Below are positions 36,435 through 42,780 of a stretch of DNA of 64,000 nucleotides, in pieces. The position numbers were made by a program, and so were the translations under genes. Source of the DNA: Actinomycetospora straminea (GTDB taxonomy: Bacteria > Actinomycetota > Actinomycetes > Mycobacteriales > Pseudonocardiaceae); assembly GCF_028737255.1 (NCBI RefSeq), contig NZ_JAQZAN010000002.1:248001-312000 (forward strand). The letters are read 5' to 3'. Position 1 is the first letter of the stretch. Every line of letters begins with the position of its first letter. Below the pieces are notes generated by a model. The model saw only the letters and a program-made list of their open reading frames with translations, searched no databases and was not told where the DNA came from.

Positions 36435-37394
36435 TCACGTCCCGGCGCGCCGCCGGATCTCGGCCACCACGGCCGGCAGCACCTCGTGCACGTCGCCGAT
36501 CACCGCCCACGTCGCCCGGCGCACCATCGCCGCCTCCGGGTCGGTGTTCACCGCGAGGATCGACCGCGCCGACATGCAGCCCACCCAGTGCTGGGTGGCG
36601 CCGCTGATGCCGCAGGCCACGTAGAGGTCGGGGCTGATCCGGGTGCCGGTGAGCCCCACCTGGTCGGCGTGCGGGCGCCAGCCGTTGTTGGTGGCGACGC
36701 GCGAGCACCCCACGGCCCCGCCGAGCAGGCCCGCGAGCTCCTCGAGCACGGCGTAGCCCTCGGCGCTGCCGACCCCGCGCCCGCCCGAGACGACCACCGG
36801 CGCCGTCGCCAGCGTCATGCCCGACGCCCGCGCCCGGTGCTCGACCAGCCGGGCCCGCGGCAGCGTCGGGTCCAGCTCGGGGACGACGACCTCGACGCCC
36901 ACCTCCGGCGCCGGCGCGGTCTCGCCCGTCGTCCGCGCGCCGCCGGTGAGGGTGGCGAGGTGGACCGGGGCGTCGAGCACCGCGTCCTCGAGCAGGATGC
37001 CGCCGGCGCGCTCCCGGGTGACCTCCCACGGCTCGCCGGGACGAATCCCGGTGCAGGCCGTGGCGAGCGGCACACCGAGCGCCGCGGCCGCCCACGCCAG
37101 CACCTCGGTGCTCTCCGGGGTCGCCGCCGCGAGCACCGCCGCGGGCCCGCGGGCCGCCGCGAGCCCGGCGAGCGCCTCGCCGACGGTGGCCGGCTCCGCG
37201 TCGGCGAGCAGGTCGTGCCGGAGCAGGACCAGGTGCGCGACGCCCTGCTTGGCGAGGTCGTCGGGCAGGTCGCCGGGCTCGCCGACCGCGACCGCCGTGA
37301 CCTCGGCGCCCAGCTCCCGCGCCGTGGCGAGCACCTCCCCCGCCGCGGCGGTCGGGCTGCCCTGCGCGTCCCTCTCGATCCACGCGAGCACCAT
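36435..37394 (-). CDS. etfA: Electron transfer flavoprotein alpha subunit
   Basis: 319 residues. The FAD-binding C-terminal domain is clear: [30 protein letters not shown], and [20 protein letters not shown]. The ETF heterodimer takes electrons from flavin dehydrogenases and passes them to ETF-quinone oxidoreductase. The ATG start (37394) overlaps the etfB stop as ATGA. It is the last gene of the demethylation operon, and etfBA are probably dedicated to the upstream DMGDH-like enzyme (inference). Confidence 0.93.
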
Positions 37395-38149
37395 CAGCGC
37401 ACCACCCCCAGCTCCGCCAGGACGTCCACCACCGCCGGCGCCGCCCCGGCCCCGTGCCCGAGCAGGACGGTCTCCGCGCGCGCCTCGGGCCGGTGGCGCA
37501 GCCGCAGCGTCCGCAGGCCGCTCGTCGCCGCCGGGCCCGCGAGCACCCGGACCGGCGCCTTCTTCGCCCGCAGCCGCCCCTTGATCGTCGGGTAGCGCGG
37601 GAGGTTGAGGCCCTCGAGCACCGCGGCCACCGCGGGCAGCGGGGCCTCGTGGACCTCGACGCCACCGCCGGCCTCGCGGCGCAGGGTCACGTGCTCCTCG
37701 CCGACGTCGATGCCCTTGACCCCGCCGACGATCGGGCGGCGCAGCGCGCACGCGACGCGGAAGCCGACCTGCGCGTGCCCGGCGTCCGCCGACGCCTCCC
37801 CGAACAGCACGAGGTCGTAGGGCGGCAGCTCCCGCAGCGCGCCCGTGATCGCGGCCGTGGTGACCTCGGGCTCCGGGTCCGCGACGGGCGCCTCGACCCG
37901 GATCGCGTGGTCGGCGCCCATCGACAGCGCGTAGCGCAGCTGCTCCTCGGTCTCGGGCGGCCCGACCGTCAGCACGCCCGCGCGGCCGCCCGTCCGGTCG
38001 GCGAGGCGCACCGCCTCCTCGACCGCGCACTCCTCGTGCGGGCCGATGGTGAAGCCGAGGTGGCGGGTGTCGACCGCCGTCGCGTCGGCCGTCAGCGCGA
38101 TCTCGGCGCCCACGGCGGGCACGCGCTTGATGCAGACCAGGACGTCCAT
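37394..38149 (-). CDS. etfB: Electron transfer flavoprotein beta subunit
   Basis: 251 residues. Features of the AMP-binding beta subunit are CIKRVP at the N-terminus, GPHEECAVEEAVRL, and LPRYPTIKGRLRAKKAPV, the family C-terminal signature. It is coupled to etfA by ATGA and starts 7 nt after the stop of the DMGDH-like gene, with GAGG upstream of ATG 38149. Confidence 0.94.
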   Translation of the reverse strand: MDVLVCIKRVPAVGAEIALTADATAVDTRHLGFTIGPHEECAVEEAVRLADRTGGRAGVLTVGPPETEEQLRYALSMGADHAIRVEAPVADPEPEVTTAAITGALRELPPYDLVLFGEASADAGHAQVGFRVACALRRPIVGGVKGIDVGEEHVTLRREAGGGVEVHEAPLPAVAAVLEGLNLPRYPTIKGRLRAKKAPVRVLAGPAATSGLRTLRLRHRPEARAETVLLGHGAGAAPAVVDVLAELGVVR

Positions 38150-38156
38150 GCCGGCC

Positions 38157-40649
38157 TCACCCGCGCATCCGCGTGTCGTCGGGGTCGAACAGCGGCGTGC
38201 GCCCGGCCCGCGCGACCGTCACCGGGTACCGCTCCCCCAGGTACTCGACGAGCAGGCCGGTGCCCTCGACCGCGTGCCACGGCGGGAGGTACGCGAGCAC
38301 CAGGTGGGTGCCCAGCGAGGGCGCCGTCCCCGCGCTCGTGACGTACGACGGCCGGCCGCGGCGGTCGGTGATCCGGGCCCCGTCGGGCGTCAGGATCGGC
38401 TCGCCGCCCTGCGGGACGCGGGTCGTCCCGTCGAGGCGCAGCGTGCACAGCGTCGCCTCGGGCTCGCCCTCGCGCGCCTTGGTGTACGCGGCCTTGCCGA
38501 CGAAGTCCGCCTCCTTGAGCCGGGGCAGCGCGAGCCCGGCCTCCACCGGCCCGTGCTCGGCGTCGAGCTCGTGGCCCATGAGCCGGTAGCCCTTCTCGAG
38601 GCGCGCCGTGGTGCCGTAGACGCCGATGCCGGCCGGCACGATCCCGTGCGGCGCGCCGGCCGCGGCGACCGCGTCCCAGAGCCGCAGGCCGTGCTCGGTG
38701 GCGGTGTGCAGCTCCCACCCGAGCTCGCCGACGTACGACAGCCGCAGGGCGAGCACCGGGATCGAGCCGACGTGCACGGTCCGCGCCGTCGCGAACGGGA
38801 AGGCGGCGTCGGTGACGTCGTCGTCGGTGATCTCGGCGAGGACGTCGCGCGCCCGCGGGCCCCACAGCCCGAGGGTGCACACCGCCGACGTGACGTCCTC
38901 CAGGGCGACCGACCCGTCGGCCGGCAGGTGCCGCCGGAACCACGCGAGGTCCCGCGCGCCGTCCGACGCGCCCGTGACGACGCGGAACGCGTCGTCGGCG
39001 AGCCGCACCACCGTCAGGTCGCTGCGGAAGCCGCCGTCGGGCCCCAGCACCGGCGTGTAGATCACGCGGCCCACCGGCCGGTCCATCTGCGCGACGCACA
39101 GGTGCTGGAGGTAGGCGAGCGCGCCCGGGCCGTGCACGGCGAACTGGGAGAAGGCGCTGAGGTCGATCATCGCCACGCCGCGCCGCATCGCGAGGTGTTC
39201 CGCGCTCGTGATCGGCGACCACCAGCGCGCGTCCCACTCGTGCGACCGGTCCTCGACGCCGAACTCGGCCACCAGCGGCTCGTTGGACCGGTACCACTGC
39301 GGGCGCTCCCACCCCGCGACCTCGAAGAACTCCGCGCCGAGCGCCTCCTCGCGGGGGAAGAACGGCGAGCGGCGTGCCCCGCGGTCCGAGCTCCACTGCT
39401 CGCGCGGGTGGATGATCCCGTAGGTCTTGTTGAAGCCCTCGGCGGCGCGGGCGCGCACGTGGGCGCGGGTGCGCTCGTGCGGGGCGAACCGGGCGACGTC
39501 CGACGCGTGCGGGTCGATCTCCGGCGCGCCGCACGTCATCCACTCCGCGACGAGCCGCCCGACACCGGGCCCCTCCTTGATCCACACCGCGGCGGCCGAC
39601 CACAGGCCCCGCACCTCGGGGAGCTCGCCGAGCAGCGGGTGCCCGTCGGGGGTCAGCGACAGGAGCCCGTTGATGGCGTGGCGGATGCCCGCGTCCGGCC
39701 GGTCGAGGATGCCGCCGAAGAGCTCGAGCGCCGCCTCCATCTGCGGGTCGAAGTCGTCGGGGGTGAACGGCAGCTGCGTCGGCGAGAGCGCCGCGGCCGC
39801 GATCGACGGGATGTCGTCGGGGTCGCAGAGGATCGGCCGGTGGGCGTACGACCCGATCTCCAGGTCGGGGCCGCTCTGCCGCTCGTACATCAGCGGGTCC
39901 ATGTCACGGATGATCGGGAACGCGATCTCCCGCCCGGTCGCGGCGAGCTCGGCGATGGGCCCGACGTCGATCATCTGGTGCACGGCCGGCGTCAGCGGGA
40001 TGGTCGCGCCGGCCAGCGCCGCGATGCGCGGGCTCCACACCCCGCACGCGATCACGACGTACTCGGTCTCGACGTCGCCGCGGTCGGTGCGCACCCGCCG
40101 GACACGGCCGTCCTCGGTGTCGATGCCGAGCACCTCGGTCAGGGCCGACACCGTCAGCGCCCCGGCCGCCGTGGCGCGCTCGCGCATCAGCTCGCCGGCC
40201 CGCAGCGGGTCGACGACGGACACCGAGGGCGTCCAGAACCCCGCGAGCACCACCGACGGGTCGAGGAAGGGGACCTTCTCGGCCACCTCCGCCGGGCTGA
40301 TCATCTCGGCGTCGATGCCCCACGCCGTCGCCGACGACATCCGCCGGTGCAGCTCCTGGACCCGCTCCTCGGTGCGCGCGACCTCGATGCCGCCGCAGGT
40401 CGTCAGCGTCCCGAGCTCGGTGTACTGGCGCGCCGAGTCGGCGGTCAGCAGCGTGATCTCGCGCGAGTGGTCCACCGGGAACACGAAGTTCGACGCGTGC
40501 CCGGTGGAGCCGCCCGGGTCGGGCAGCGGCCCCTTGTCGACGAGCAGGACGTCGCGCCACCCCAGGCGGGCGAGGTGGTGCACGACGGCGTTGCCGACGA
40601 TGCCGGCCCCGATGACGACGACCTGGGCCCGGTCCGGGAACGGTGTCAC
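38157..40649 (-). CDS. Dimethylglycine/sarcosine dehydrogenase-like FAD-THF enzyme
   Basis: 830 residues. An N-terminal DAO-type FAD domain (VVVIGAGIVGNAVVHHLARLG near 10) has GSTGHAS, whose His matches the covalent-FAD His of dimethylglycine dehydrogenase. A FAO linker domain and a C-terminal GcvT-like folate-binding domain (from about 440; RRGVAMIDLSAFSQFAVHGPGALAYLQ, ...LEKGYRLMGHELDAEHGPVEAGL) follow. The family oxidises N-methyl groups and traps the carbon on tetrahydrofolate, passing electrons to ETF. The substrate is not readable: dimethylglycine, sarcosine or another N-methyl compound. GTG 40649 has GGGAGGA upstream. It is central to the five-gene operon. Confidence 0.88.
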   Translation of the reverse strand: MTPFPDRAQVVVIGAGIVGNAVVHHLARLGWRDVLLVDKGPLPDPGGSTGHASNFVFPVDHSREITLLTADSARQYTELGTLTTCGGIEVARTEERVQELHRRMSSATAWGIDAEMISPAEVAEKVPFLDPSVVLAGFWTPSVSVVDPLRAGELMRERATAAGALTVSALTEVLGIDTEDGRVRRVRTDRGDVETEYVVIACGVWSPRIAALAGATIPLTPAVHQMIDVGPIAELAATGREIAFPIIRDMDPLMYERQSGPDLEIGSYAHRPILCDPDDIPSIAAAALSPTQLPFTPDDFDPQMEAALELFGGILDRPDAGIRHAINGLLSLTPDGHPLLGELPEVRGLWSAAAVWIKEGPGVGRLVAEWMTCGAPEIDPHASDVARFAPHERTRAHVRARAAEGFNKTYGIIHPREQWSSDRGARRSPFFPREEALGAEFFEVAGWERPQWYRSNEPLVAEFGVEDRSHEWDARWWSPITSAEHLAMRRGVAMIDLSAFSQFAVHGPGALAYLQHLCVAQMDRPVGRVIYTPVLGPDGGFRSDLTVVRLADDAFRVVTGASDGARDLAWFRRHLPADGSVALEDVTSAVCTLGLWGPRARDVLAEITDDDVTDAAFPFATARTVHVGSIPVLALRLSYVGELGWELHTATEHGLRLWDAVAAAGAPHGIVPAGIGVYGTTARLEKGYRLMGHELDAEHGPVEAGLALPRLKEADFVGKAAYTKAREGEPEATLCTLRLDGTTRVPQGGEPILTPDGARITDRRGRPSYVTSAGTAPSLGTHLVLAYLPPWHAVEGTGLLVEYLGERYPVTVARAGRTPLFDPDDTRMRG

Positions 40650-40682
40650 GGTTCCTCCCGCGTCACTGGCTGGGGTGGAGGG

Positions 40683-41549
40683 TCAGGCGGCCGCGCGGCG
40701 GGCCCGCGAGAGCCACCGCACGGTCGGTGCGACCTGGTTGAACGTGTAGAGGTGCAGCCCGGCGAGGTCGGCGCCGGCCGCTGCACCCGCGGCGAGGCCG
40801 GCGACCAGCTCGTCGGGGGTGTGGCGGCCGGGCCGCAGCAGCGATCCCGCCGTCCCGCGGTGCGAGCGCGCGAAGCGGGCGGCGTCGGCGACCCCGATGC
40901 GCACCGAGAGCCGCAGCAGCCGCGCGGCGTCGACGACGCCGGGCACCCCGGCGATCACCGGCAGGTCGATCCCCCGCGCCCGGGCCTCCCGGGCGAAGCG
41001 GCCGACGAGGTCGGCGTCGAAGCACAGCTGCGTGACGGTGTAGTCGGCGTGGAACTGCTTGACCCGCAGGTCGGCCCACAGCACGTCGTCGTCGATGCGG
41101 TGGTGGCCGTCGGGGTACGACGGCACGCCGACGCGCGGCGGGCGCCGGCCGAGCTCCTCCATCACCCGCAGCAGCGCCAGGCCGTCGGGCAGCTGCCCCG
41201 CGGCCTCGCGGGCGTCGCCGCCGACGACGAACACCTCGCGCACCCCGGCCGCGGCCAGCCGGTCGAGGTGCTCGGCGAGCTCGGCGCGGTCGCGCAGGCT
41301 GCGCGCCGCGAGGTGGGGCACGGCCGCGAAACCGCGGGCGGCGAGCGCCTCGGCGGCGGCGACGGTGGCGGCCACGCCCCGCCGCGGGGTGGTCGTCACC
41401 GTCACCGTGGCGCCGGCGGGCAGGTCGGACGCGAGGTCCAGCACGTCCGCCGTCGGCGCCACCTCGAAGCGCGGGTCGGCGAGCAGGGCGGCGAGGGTGG
41501 TGCGGGCTCCCGCACCACCCTCGCCGGCTCCGTCCGTGAGGTGGTCCAC
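40683..41549 (-). CDS. MetF-like methylenetetrahydrofolate reductase
   Basis: 288 residues, TIM-barrel MTHFR type. Alignable segments are VPHLAARSLRDRAELAEHLDRLAAAGVREVFVVGGD (equivalent to the FAD/folate-binding APHL...RGD of MetF), VGVPSYPDGHH, VTQLCFDADLV (the folate-contacting Gln) and the terminal HLYTFNQV. In this operon it most likely oxidises 5-methyl-THF made by the demethylase to 5,10-methylene-THF (inference); a FAD-independent mode as reported for some mycobacterial homologues is possible. GTG 41549 starts 7 nt after the preceding stop, with a weak ribosome site. Confidence 0.8.
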   Translation of the reverse strand: MDHLTDGAGEGGAGARTTLAALLADPRFEVAPTADVLDLASDLPAGATVTVTTTPRRGVAATVAAAEALAARGFAAVPHLAARSLRDRAELAEHLDRLAAAGVREVFVVGGDAREAAGQLPDGLALLRVMEELGRRPPRVGVPSYPDGHHRIDDDVLWADLRVKQFHADYTVTQLCFDADLVGRFAREARARGIDLPVIAGVPGVVDAARLLRLSVRIGVADAARFARSHRGTAGSLLRPGRHTPDELVAGLAAGAAAGADLAGLHLYTFNQVAPTVRWLSRARRAAA

Positions 41550-41556
41550 GAGCCGG

Positions 41557-42780
41557 TCAGCCCTTGGGCGTCTGCTTGCGCGGGTCGACGAACGGCTTCT
41601 CGACGACGACGCCGTCGCGCACGTCGTCGAGCGTGGCGATCTGCAGCGTCGTCCCCAGCGGTGTCGACGGCGTCGCGACCATCGCGAGGCCGATGTTGCG
41701 CTCGAGCCGCGGCGACCAGCACGCGCTGGTCACCGTGCCGACGACCTCACCCGCCTCGTCGCGCACCGTGAACGGCTCGATCATCGACCCGTCGTTGAAC
41801 GACCCCAGCCGCGCGCCGCCGATCTCGACGCCCACCATCGACCGCGACAGGCCCCGCTCCTTCGCGCGGATCAGGGCGTCCTTGCCGACGAAGTCGGCCT
41901 CCTGGTGCAGGTCGACCATCCACGTGTAGTCGTAGCCGACCTCGAGCGGGTTGGTGTCGAGGGTGATGTCGCAGCCGTAGGCGAGCATCCCGCCCTCGAT
42001 GCGGCGGATGTGGCACGGCCCGATCGGGCGCATCCCGTGCGGCCGCCCCGCCTCCCACACGCGGTCCCAGAGCCGGCCCGCGTTGCGGACGGCGTCGTGC
42101 AGGTAGATCTCGTAGCCGATCTCGGCGCTGTAGCCGGTCCGGCTGACGACGACCTCCATGTCGTCGATGACCGCGTGCCGCAGGTGGTAGTACGGCATCT
42201 CGGCGACCTCGGCCCCGACCAGGTCGGTGACGACGGCCTTCGCCTTCGGCCCCTGGACCTGCACCGGGGCGACGTCGATCTCGCGGACCTGCACGTCCCA
42301 CCCGCCGGCGTGCGCCAGCGCCCGGCACCAGAGCCCGACGTCGGAGTCGGCGAGCGAGAGCCAGAAGCGGTCGGACTCGACGCGCAGCAGGACCGGGTCG
42401 TTGATGATCCCGCCGTCGGGCGCGGTGAGGAACACGTACTTGCACTGGCCCACCGCGCACTTGTTCAGGTCGCGCGGCACGAGCGAGTTCGTGAACGCGA
42501 AGGCGTCCGGGCCCGCGATCTCGATCTGGCGCTCGACGCCGACGTCCCAGAGGGTCACGTCCTCGAGCAGCGCCCAGTACTCGGCGATCGGGTCGCCGTA
42601 GTGGCGCGGGTGGTACGTGTGGTTGTAGACGCTGTACATCGCCACGCCGTGCGCGCGCGACTTCCAGAAGTACGGCGACTTCCGCAGCCGCGGGTAGAGC
42701 AGGATCCCCGGGCTCACCACCGTCGACGACGGCTCCGGCGCGAGATCCACCGCCGTTCGGCCGGGCAGGACGTCCGTCAT
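41557..42780 (-). CDS. GcvT/DmdA-like THF-dependent demethylase
   Basis: 407 residues of the aminomethyltransferase fold. ALLEDVTLWDVGVERQIEIAGPDAFAFTNSLVPRDLNKCAVGQCKYVFLTAPDGGIINDPVLLRV, VSRTGYSAEIGYEIYL and a C-terminal GcvT_C barrel (VGVEIGGARLG...) are visible. It resembles the DMSP-demethylase-like branch more than true glycine cleavage T protein, having a ~25-residue N-terminal extension and GGIIND where GcvT has GGxxDD. It would move a methyl group from an S- or N-methyl substrate to THF. The ATG 42780 has GAGGTG upstream; first gene of the operon, 57 nt downstream of the IclR-type boxes. Confidence 0.82.
   Translation of the reverse strand: MTDVLPGRTAVDLAPEPSSTVVSPGILLYPRLRKSPYFWKSRAHGVAMYSVYNHTYHPRHYGDPIAEYWALLEDVTLWDVGVERQIEIAGPDAFAFTNSLVPRDLNKCAVGQCKYVFLTAPDGGIINDPVLLRVESDRFWLSLADSDVGLWCRALAHAGGWDVQVREIDVAPVQVQGPKAKAVVTDLVGAEVAEMPYYHLRHAVIDDMEVVVSRTGYSAEIGYEIYLHDAVRNAGRLWDRVWEAGRPHGMRPIGPCHIRRIEGGMLAYGCDITLDTNPLEVGYDYTWMVDLHQEADFVGKDALIRAKERGLSRSMVGVEIGGARLGSFNDGSMIEPFTVRDEAGEVVGTVTSACWSPRLERNIGLAMVATPSTPLGTTLQIATLDDVRDGVVVEKPFVDPRKQTPKG

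Follow-up and report, generated by a model that had tools for sequence, protein, structure and literature searches.

A five-gene operon at positions 36435–42780 of the window, on the minus strand, is best read, with slightly better than even confidence, as a module that demethylates a betaine without oxygenase or cobalamin; glycine betaine (GB) is the most likely substrate. The window is the whole stretch of DNA analysed, 64,000 nt long, and corresponds to bases 248001–312000 of contig 22 of the 6.3-Mb Actinomycetospora straminea genome. The initial annotation had named no substrate; gene content and gene company can probably narrow it that far.

Operon layout and proposed pathway

The first gene, demA (41557–42780, 407 aa, ATG start), encodes a GcvT/DmdA-fold protein, the proposed betaine:tetrahydrofolate (THF) methyltransferase. 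It is followed by a metF-like gene (40683–41549, 288 aa, GTG start) for a divergent methylene-THF reductase, proposed to act as a 5-methyl-THF oxidase, and by dmgdhA (38157–40649, 830 aa, GTG start) for an FAD/THF flavoprotein resembling dimethylglycine dehydrogenase (DMGDH), called type A in the following. The genes etfB (37394–38149, 251 aa) and etfA (36435–37394, 319 aa) encode the beta and alpha subunits of an electron transfer flavoprotein (ETF). All five lie on the minus strand with intergenic gaps of 7, 33 and 7 nt, so the tight operon described in the initial annotation is real. The ATGA overlap it gave for etfB and etfA was a misreading: the junction reads TGATG, a 1-nt overlap. The scans took the etfA start at 37397, giving one extra residue. 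The earlier domain assignments stood, as Pfam placed each of the five proteins without conflict.

From the genes, their domains and conserved catalytic residues, their linkage and their contexts, we infer which reactions are catalysed and on which substrate, in which direction the MetF-like enzyme works and where the electrons go. DemA would take one methyl group off the quaternary nitrogen of GB and pass it to THF, with dimethylglycine and 5-methyl-THF as products. Oxidation of the latter back to methylene-THF would fall to the MetF-like enzyme. With NAD+, this oxidation is uphill, and we therefore propose that the flavin of the MetF-like enzyme may hand its electrons to the ETF of the operon. 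Type A would oxidise an N-methyl group of dimethylglycine to the iminium on FAD, its GCV_T half would pass the one-carbon unit to THF, and its electrons would flow via ETF to the quinone pool. Methylene-THF would finally be converted to formate and ATP by folate enzymes and formate–THF ligase. A two-methyl scheme with ETF had already been suggested for these genes. It fits the domains, the catalytic residues and the gene company, and stands as a proposed pathway.

Identity of the first protein

Judged by its sequence, DemA is neither DmdA, the demethylase of dimethylsulfoniopropionate (DMSP), nor GcvT. Its Pfam matches were GCV_T (PF01571, 150.5 bits) and GCV_T_C (PF08669). The best solved relatives were, in this order, SAR11 DmdA (3tfh, 218 bits), trimethylamine N-oxide (TMAO) demethylase (155 bits) and GcvT. 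The score was 312.5 bits for the NCBIfam model of DmdA (NF009133, cut-off 410) and 157.6 bits for that of GcvT (TIGR00528, cut-off 235.85), so that neither cut-off was reached. The window gene is 96–97% identical to demA of Actinomycetospora lemnae.

In a tree of 93 rows, the window protein grouped with 78 locus rows (SH-aLRT 93). The alphaproteobacterial and haloarchaeal relatives fell outside this group, as did the four DmdA-type rows, which formed a group of their own (SH 98); the tree was built by a quick method and has several long branches, and its deep order is unsure. The row of locus L116 consisted of two separate tblastn pieces, and its branch in this tree is an artefact. A later demA tree left out L116, GcvT and TMAO demethylase; L075 gave no demA row.

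It is very improbable that DemA is a DMSP demethylase whose neighbouring flavoprotein is unrelated to its product. The best solved match and the best NCBIfam match are both DmdA, and relatives with 47% identity in Loktanella and Phaeobacter have genes for acyl-CoA synthetase and enoyl-CoA hydratase as neighbours. Nevertheless, we rejected the identity with DmdA because of the score below the cut-off (312 vs. 410 bits), the separate tree group and the gene context: dmdBCD are not in the operon, and an N-methyl flavoprotein as a frequent partner does not fit DMSP. The tryptophan described as key for DMSP in DmdA, W171 in the accessible part of PMC7487153, was equated by spacing with W197 of 3tfh, where the window DemA has a tyrosine. 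We dropped this residue as a diagnostic of DmdA, as two of the four DmdA-type rows have tyrosine there too.

A standard T protein of the glycine cleavage system among housekeeping genes, which the initial annotation had raised together with gcvH/gcvP partners as the outcome that would overturn it, is contradicted by the results and keeps hardly any probability. DemA does have the GCV_T domain, but its GcvT score is low (158 vs. 236 bits), and neither gcvH nor gcvP is in the operon. The GcvT of this genome is a different gene at C53:157183, which is the best GCV_T match of the genome (275 bits).

The same chemistry on another trimethylammonium substrate (carnitine, butyrobetaine, beta-alanine betaine or TMAO) appears unlikely. 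In its favour, TMAO demethylase, also of GcvT fold, ranks second among the solved relatives of DemA. However, DemA consists of GCV_T domains only, without the other half of the TMAO demethylase, and the enzymes found in the neighbourhood of demA are those of dimethylglycine, sarcosine, choline and betaine.

Two sets of more distant relatives were seen beside this group. The 47%-identical genes, on plasmids of Phaeobacter and Loktanella (L120, L138, L139), carry the Trp of SAR11 DmdA, and OsmC was found in two of the three; they are perhaps an unrecognised DmdA-type branch. On a plasmid of Lichenihabitans psoromatis (L119), a relative with 48% identity lies between metF and purU-folD, with an FAD oxidoreductase, an aminotransferase and ABC transporters as neighbours. 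This is likely another methyl-to-folate catabolic cluster.

The MetF-like, DMGDH-like and ETF proteins

The MetF-like protein matched Pfam MTHFR (PF02219) weakly, yet above threshold (52.4 bits, cut-off 24). It did not reach the cut-off of the TIGR00676 equivalog (61.9 vs. 293.7 bits), and its best solved relative was 7xg9 (107 bits). Its residues E29, D112 and Q174, equivalent to the catalytic Glu, Asp and Gln of Escherichia coli MetF, were kept in 64, 64 and 65 of 65 aligned rows.

The dmgdhA product comprises the Pfam domains DAO, FAO_M, GCV_T and GCV_T_C. Its best solved relative, over the full length, was dimethylglycine oxidase (DMGO) from Arthrobacter (1pj5, 550 bits). The FAD-site His and the equivalents of His225, Tyr259 and Asp552, all with roles in the function of these enzymes, were kept in all 67 aligned rows of DMGDH-type proteins, type A included. 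The protein thus has the architecture and the catalytic residues of DMGDH/DMGO, and activity on dimethylglycine is predicted. The ETF subunits matched their families, with PF01012 in both (etfB, 110 bits; etfA, 69 bits) and PF00766 in alpha (106 bits).

Conservation of the module

The demA loci were the best 80 of 97. Gene company was counted within the fetched flanks, and some loci were short; gene starts in them came from a simple gene caller and may be off. Beside demA, we found a metF-type gene in 67 loci, a DMGDH-type gene in 66, fhs in 48, an IclR gene in 32 and etfBA in 30, followed by sarcosine oxidase (17), serine dehydratase (3) and a BCCT gene (2). Here, fhs denotes formate–THF ligase (PF01268, 846 bits). 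The linkage with metF-type and DMGDH-type genes is thus probably no accident of the window genome, and the conservation that the initial annotation had asked for was found; the genes are linked in relatives.

The DMGDH-type partner came in two forms. Counting partial genes, the window-like type A was present in 50 loci, a DMGO-like type B in 16 and neither in 14, and the two types never occurred in one locus. A fragment in L075 was counted as type A among the loci and was left out of the genome presence/absence. Among the 61 full-length rows, the 46 of type A were 60–97% identical to the window protein and had the motif HASN, and the 15 of type B were 53–59% identical to the DMGO of this genome and had HAPG. 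A single branch with a support of SH 100 parted the two types in a tree of 72 rows, where long branches meet at this point. The demA tree needed only two changes between type A and type B over the 65 rows with a partner.

The gene company of the two types differed as well. The etfBA genes accompanied type A in 30 of 50 loci and type B in 0 of 16; their frequent position after type A suggests that it is a dehydrogenase. Sarcosine oxidase (soxBDAG-type or monomeric) was found in 14 of the 16 type B loci, and both BCCT genes were in type B loci (L102, L107). DMGO together with sarcosine oxidase would make up the route from dimethylglycine via sarcosine to glycine, and this ties demA to betaine breakdown.

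The order demA-metF-fhs-dmgdhA-etfB-etfA was found in type A loci of Pseudonocardiaceae and Jiangellaceae outside Actinomycetospora, in several cases with IclR after it. None of the 11 Actinomycetospora loci has fhs next to the operon; in the window genome, a single fhs lies on contig C5 and adjoins a cyclodeaminase-type (FTCD_C) gene. An FTCD_C-type gene is also present in loci L066 and L106 and a folD-type gene in L095. Six Nocardiopsidaceae-type loci have a second MetF gene (metF2).

Two loci stood out in their MetF genes. In Actinomycetospora sp. TBRC 11914 (L044), no metF-like gene was found between demA and dmgdhA, and the other operon genes are kept. In Nocardiopsis potens (L165:12788-14331), a small MTHFR C-terminal gene (PF12225) lies directly before metF2, divergent from demA-DMGO-sox.

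Betaine-related gene contexts

In Pseudonocardia acaciae (L049/L163), demA-metF lies inside a choline/betaine-type cluster on one stretch of 19.9 kb, and this demA belongs to the 34-row group of the window gene in the 93-row tree. Among NCBIfam models, the GMC oxidoreductase of the cluster matches choline dehydrogenase best (407 bits, cut-off 605). Also present are a gene resembling betaine aldehyde dehydrogenase (612 bits, cut-off 669) and a GbcA-like Rieske oxygenase, which was named by context (208 bits, cut-off 670). The further genes are IclR, a Rieske ferredoxin, a reductase, serine dehydratase, soxGADB and SHMT.

Pseudonocardia ammonioxydans has demA-metF-fhs-typeA-etfBA (L054) and has kept a sarcosine oxidase cluster with soxBDAG, serine dehydratase and GntR genes. 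Between gntR and soxG of this cluster (L162:5804-5932), there is a C-terminal remnant of DMGO, 43 aa long and 70% identical; in the window genome, a full DMGO of 827 aa occupies this place. Neither a Rieske match at 1e-40 nor another DMGO match was found in P. ammonioxydans. This gene set would be expected if demA and type A had taken over the first two betaine steps and supplied sarcosine.

Moreover, demA-like genes with 40–43% identity were found on five haloarchaeal plasmids. In all five, metF and DMGDH-type genes accompany them: Halobellus (L121), H. marismortui (L144), Haladaptatus (L140), Halomicrococcus (L158) and H. hispanica (L159). The last three also have fhs and ilvA there. Type A-etfBA, at 53–55% identity, is present on the plasmids of Halomicrococcus, H. 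hispanica and Halobellus. In the first two, it lies within the same 35–44 kb as the demA-like gene, metF, fhs and a BCCT gene; in Halobellus, it is ~65 kb from demA. The best NCBIfam match of the haloarchaeal BCCT protein was the betaine BCCT model, with a score below the cut-off of this model and above that of the BCCT subfamily. DMGO homologues near BCCT transporters had already been noted in a comparison of ten haloarchaea (PMC3102087, as far as its text was accessible).

The plasmids L140, L158, L159 and L160 carry C1/betaine gene sets made up of demA-like, metF, fhs, ilvA and DMGDH-type flavoprotein genes, some also with formate dehydrogenase, folP, BCCT and type A-etfBA. One gene of L158 is annotated as a member of the trimethylamine methyltransferase family.

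Evidence against a glycine betaine module

Several observations weigh against the proposed reading. A metF gene was undetected in 13 of the 80 demA loci, some of which were short. No transporter adjoins the window operon, and none of the 50 type A loci has sarcosine oxidase. The window genome also encodes a Rieske-type betaine cluster ~100 kb from the operon (C22:384000-403999, L130). Given this cluster, betaine breakdown here would not need the operon, except perhaps under other conditions, e.g. low oxygen. In this cluster, a Rieske oxygenase, again named by context (228 bits for GbcA, cut-off 670), lies with a Rieske ferredoxin, a reductase, a ProP-like transporter, IclR, a formyl-THF hydrolase-type gene, serine dehydratase, GntR, DMGO and soxGADB. 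The IclR protein of this cluster ranks second of 13, near the first, among the IclR proteins of this genome that match a demA-linked IclR. This, in turn, lends weak support to the betaine reading.

The initial annotation had argued that the operon is not a standard GB cluster, as no Rieske betaine monooxygenase, transporter or regulator is linked to it. None of these is present at the window operon; the IclR, fhs, sox, serine dehydratase and BCCT genes beside demA in relatives, the BCCT genes of two haloarchaeal plasmids and the P. acaciae cluster weaken the conclusion.

The haloarchaeal plasmids are also less clear-cut. Type A-etfBA of H. hispanica coexists with two DMGO-like proteins, and a ring-hydroxylating oxygenase of H. 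marismortui lies in the same stretch as the DMGDH-type genes and demA. Hence, the demA-like gene is not the sole candidate there.

The presence or absence of the alternative enzymes was determined for 48 genomes of the 50 loci named (L109 and L087 were left out); these include drafts and metagenome-assembled genomes (MAGs), and no completeness values came with them. A Rieske homologue was counted as present at an identity of at least 60% to the oxygenase of this genome; the search cut-offs were 1e-40 for Rieske proteins and 1e-30 for monomeric sarcosine oxidase. Intact type A was found in 37 of the 48 genomes. A Rieske homologue was present in 14 of these 37, all of which also have DMGO and SoxA, and the operon would be redundant in these genomes as well. 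The remaining 23 had no Rieske match at the cut-off and no DMGO. SoxA-type genes were found in two of the 23, P. ammonioxydans and N. sphaerica (in the latter with 36–45% identity to the sox queries). This leaves 21 genomes without Rieske oxygenase, DMGO and SoxA (some of them drafts or MAGs), and 14 of the 21 also had no match to monomeric sarcosine oxidase. With GB as the substrate, sarcosine would have to be handled by type A or by an unseen enzyme in these 21 genomes; otherwise, the substrate would have two removable N-methyl groups.

The latter case, the same chemistry on a betaine such as stachydrine (proline betaine), is possible, though we consider it unlikely. DemA would convert stachydrine to N-methylproline and type A would convert this to proline, and sarcosine oxidase would not be needed. 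This agrees with the 21 stand-alone genomes, with the absence of sarcosine oxidase from type A loci compared with 14 of 16 type B loci, with the flavin-site motif of type A (HASNF vs. HAPGL in DMGO) and with the Rieske-type route already existing in 14 type A genomes. On the other hand, P. acaciae and P. ammonioxydans tie the demA group and type A to betaine and sarcosine genes. Furthermore, no proline catabolism gene was recognised among the annotated neighbours, where no query was aimed at such genes.

The genomes without intact type A bear on a GB module from the other side. Five of these 11 genomes have type B and sarcosine oxidase and no Rieske homologue of at least 60% identity: G089, G099, G102 and G106 (SoxA) and G107 (monomeric oxidase). 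In G089, a two-piece DMGO-like gene was counted as type B and a partial Rieske match of 42% as absent. These five genomes need another first step of GB degradation. The cobalamin-dependent MttB family (PF06253) was found in none of the 48 demA-bearing genomes of relatives.

Flanking genes

The operon is flanked by a cdsA-type cytidylyltransferase gene upstream and a radical-SAM/RlmN-type gene downstream. The initial annotation was right in placing it between cdsA and rlmN, except that a methyltransferase open reading frame (PF08241, 42943-43665, minus strand) separates cdsA from demA. This methyltransferase gene was found near demA in 8 of the 80 loci, every one from Actinomycetospora and each also with the cdsA and rlmN genes. 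Of the 11 Actinomycetospora loci, 8 have all three flanking genes. These genes were not found at the other three (L042, L044, L046), where the operon accordingly sits elsewhere.

An Rfam scan of the window gave no match, so no riboswitch control was seen. The scan of eight relatives gave three tRNAs and one S-adenosylmethionine (SAM) riboswitch, the latter ~6 kb beyond demA in L078.

Comparison with known systems and implications

DmdA transfers a methyl group from DMSP to THF, giving 5-methyl-THF (PMC5395565, PMC7487153, in their accessible parts). The DmdA proteins of SAR11 and Ruegeria share the fold of DemA, and the transfer of a methyl group from a charged onium centre to THF is what we propose for DemA. 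DemA differs in its score below the cut-off, its separate tree group and its Tyr in place of the SAR11 Trp197, and its partners are metF, fhs, DMGDH and ETF instead of dmdBCD. From the accessible part of PMC3160333, SAR11_1265 is a DmdA-like protein encoded beside metF, and SAR11_1303 has been postulated to act in GB metabolism. Both are different proteins from DemA; that part describes no operon with DMGDH and ETF for them, and leaves their substrates unproven.

Type A has the full-length DAO and GCV_T architecture of Arthrobacter DMGO and animal DMGDH, as well as their FAD-site His, His225, Tyr259 and Asp552. It differs from DMGO by forming its own group, by an identity of only ~40% to the DMGO of this genome and by HASNF instead of HAPGL. 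Unlike the DMGO-like type B, it is often followed by etfBA.

The predicted step of DemA, from GB to dimethylglycine, is the same as that of the Rieske GB monooxygenase GbcA. GbcA is oxygen-dependent, and the GbcA-like Rieske protein of the window genome is encoded elsewhere and not in the operon. The closest parallel in the overall route is the MtgBCD and MetF2 system of marine bacteria, which transfers a GB methyl group to THF in a cobalamin-dependent manner (PMC12478193, accessible part). As in the proposed module, a paralogue of MetF and THF-linked oxidation follow. While MtgBCD depends on cobalamin, a single GcvT-fold protein would carry out the transfer in the proposed module. Neither a GcvT-fold, cobalamin-free betaine demethylase nor such an operon was recognised in the open-access literature, as far as its text was accessible and with subscription journals mostly outside it.

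A wider claim appears doubtful at present. In it, demA-metF-(fhs)-dmgdhA-etfBA would be a self-sufficient betaine-oxidising pathway, free of oxygenase and B12 and common to actinobacteria and haloarchaea. Type A would strip both remaining N-methyl groups, MetF would feed the same ETF, the quinone pool would draw the oxidation of methyl-THF forward, and ATP would be gained from each methyl group through formate–THF ligase.

How aerobes without GbcAB remove the first methyl group of GB has been an open question, to which the cobalamin system is the answer for marine bacteria (PMC12478193, accessible part). The demA module predicts that actinobacteria, many with names that point to saline habitats, and haloarchaea have a second answer, one without cobalamin. 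If this is true, many genes annotated as 'aminomethyltransferase' would be explained.

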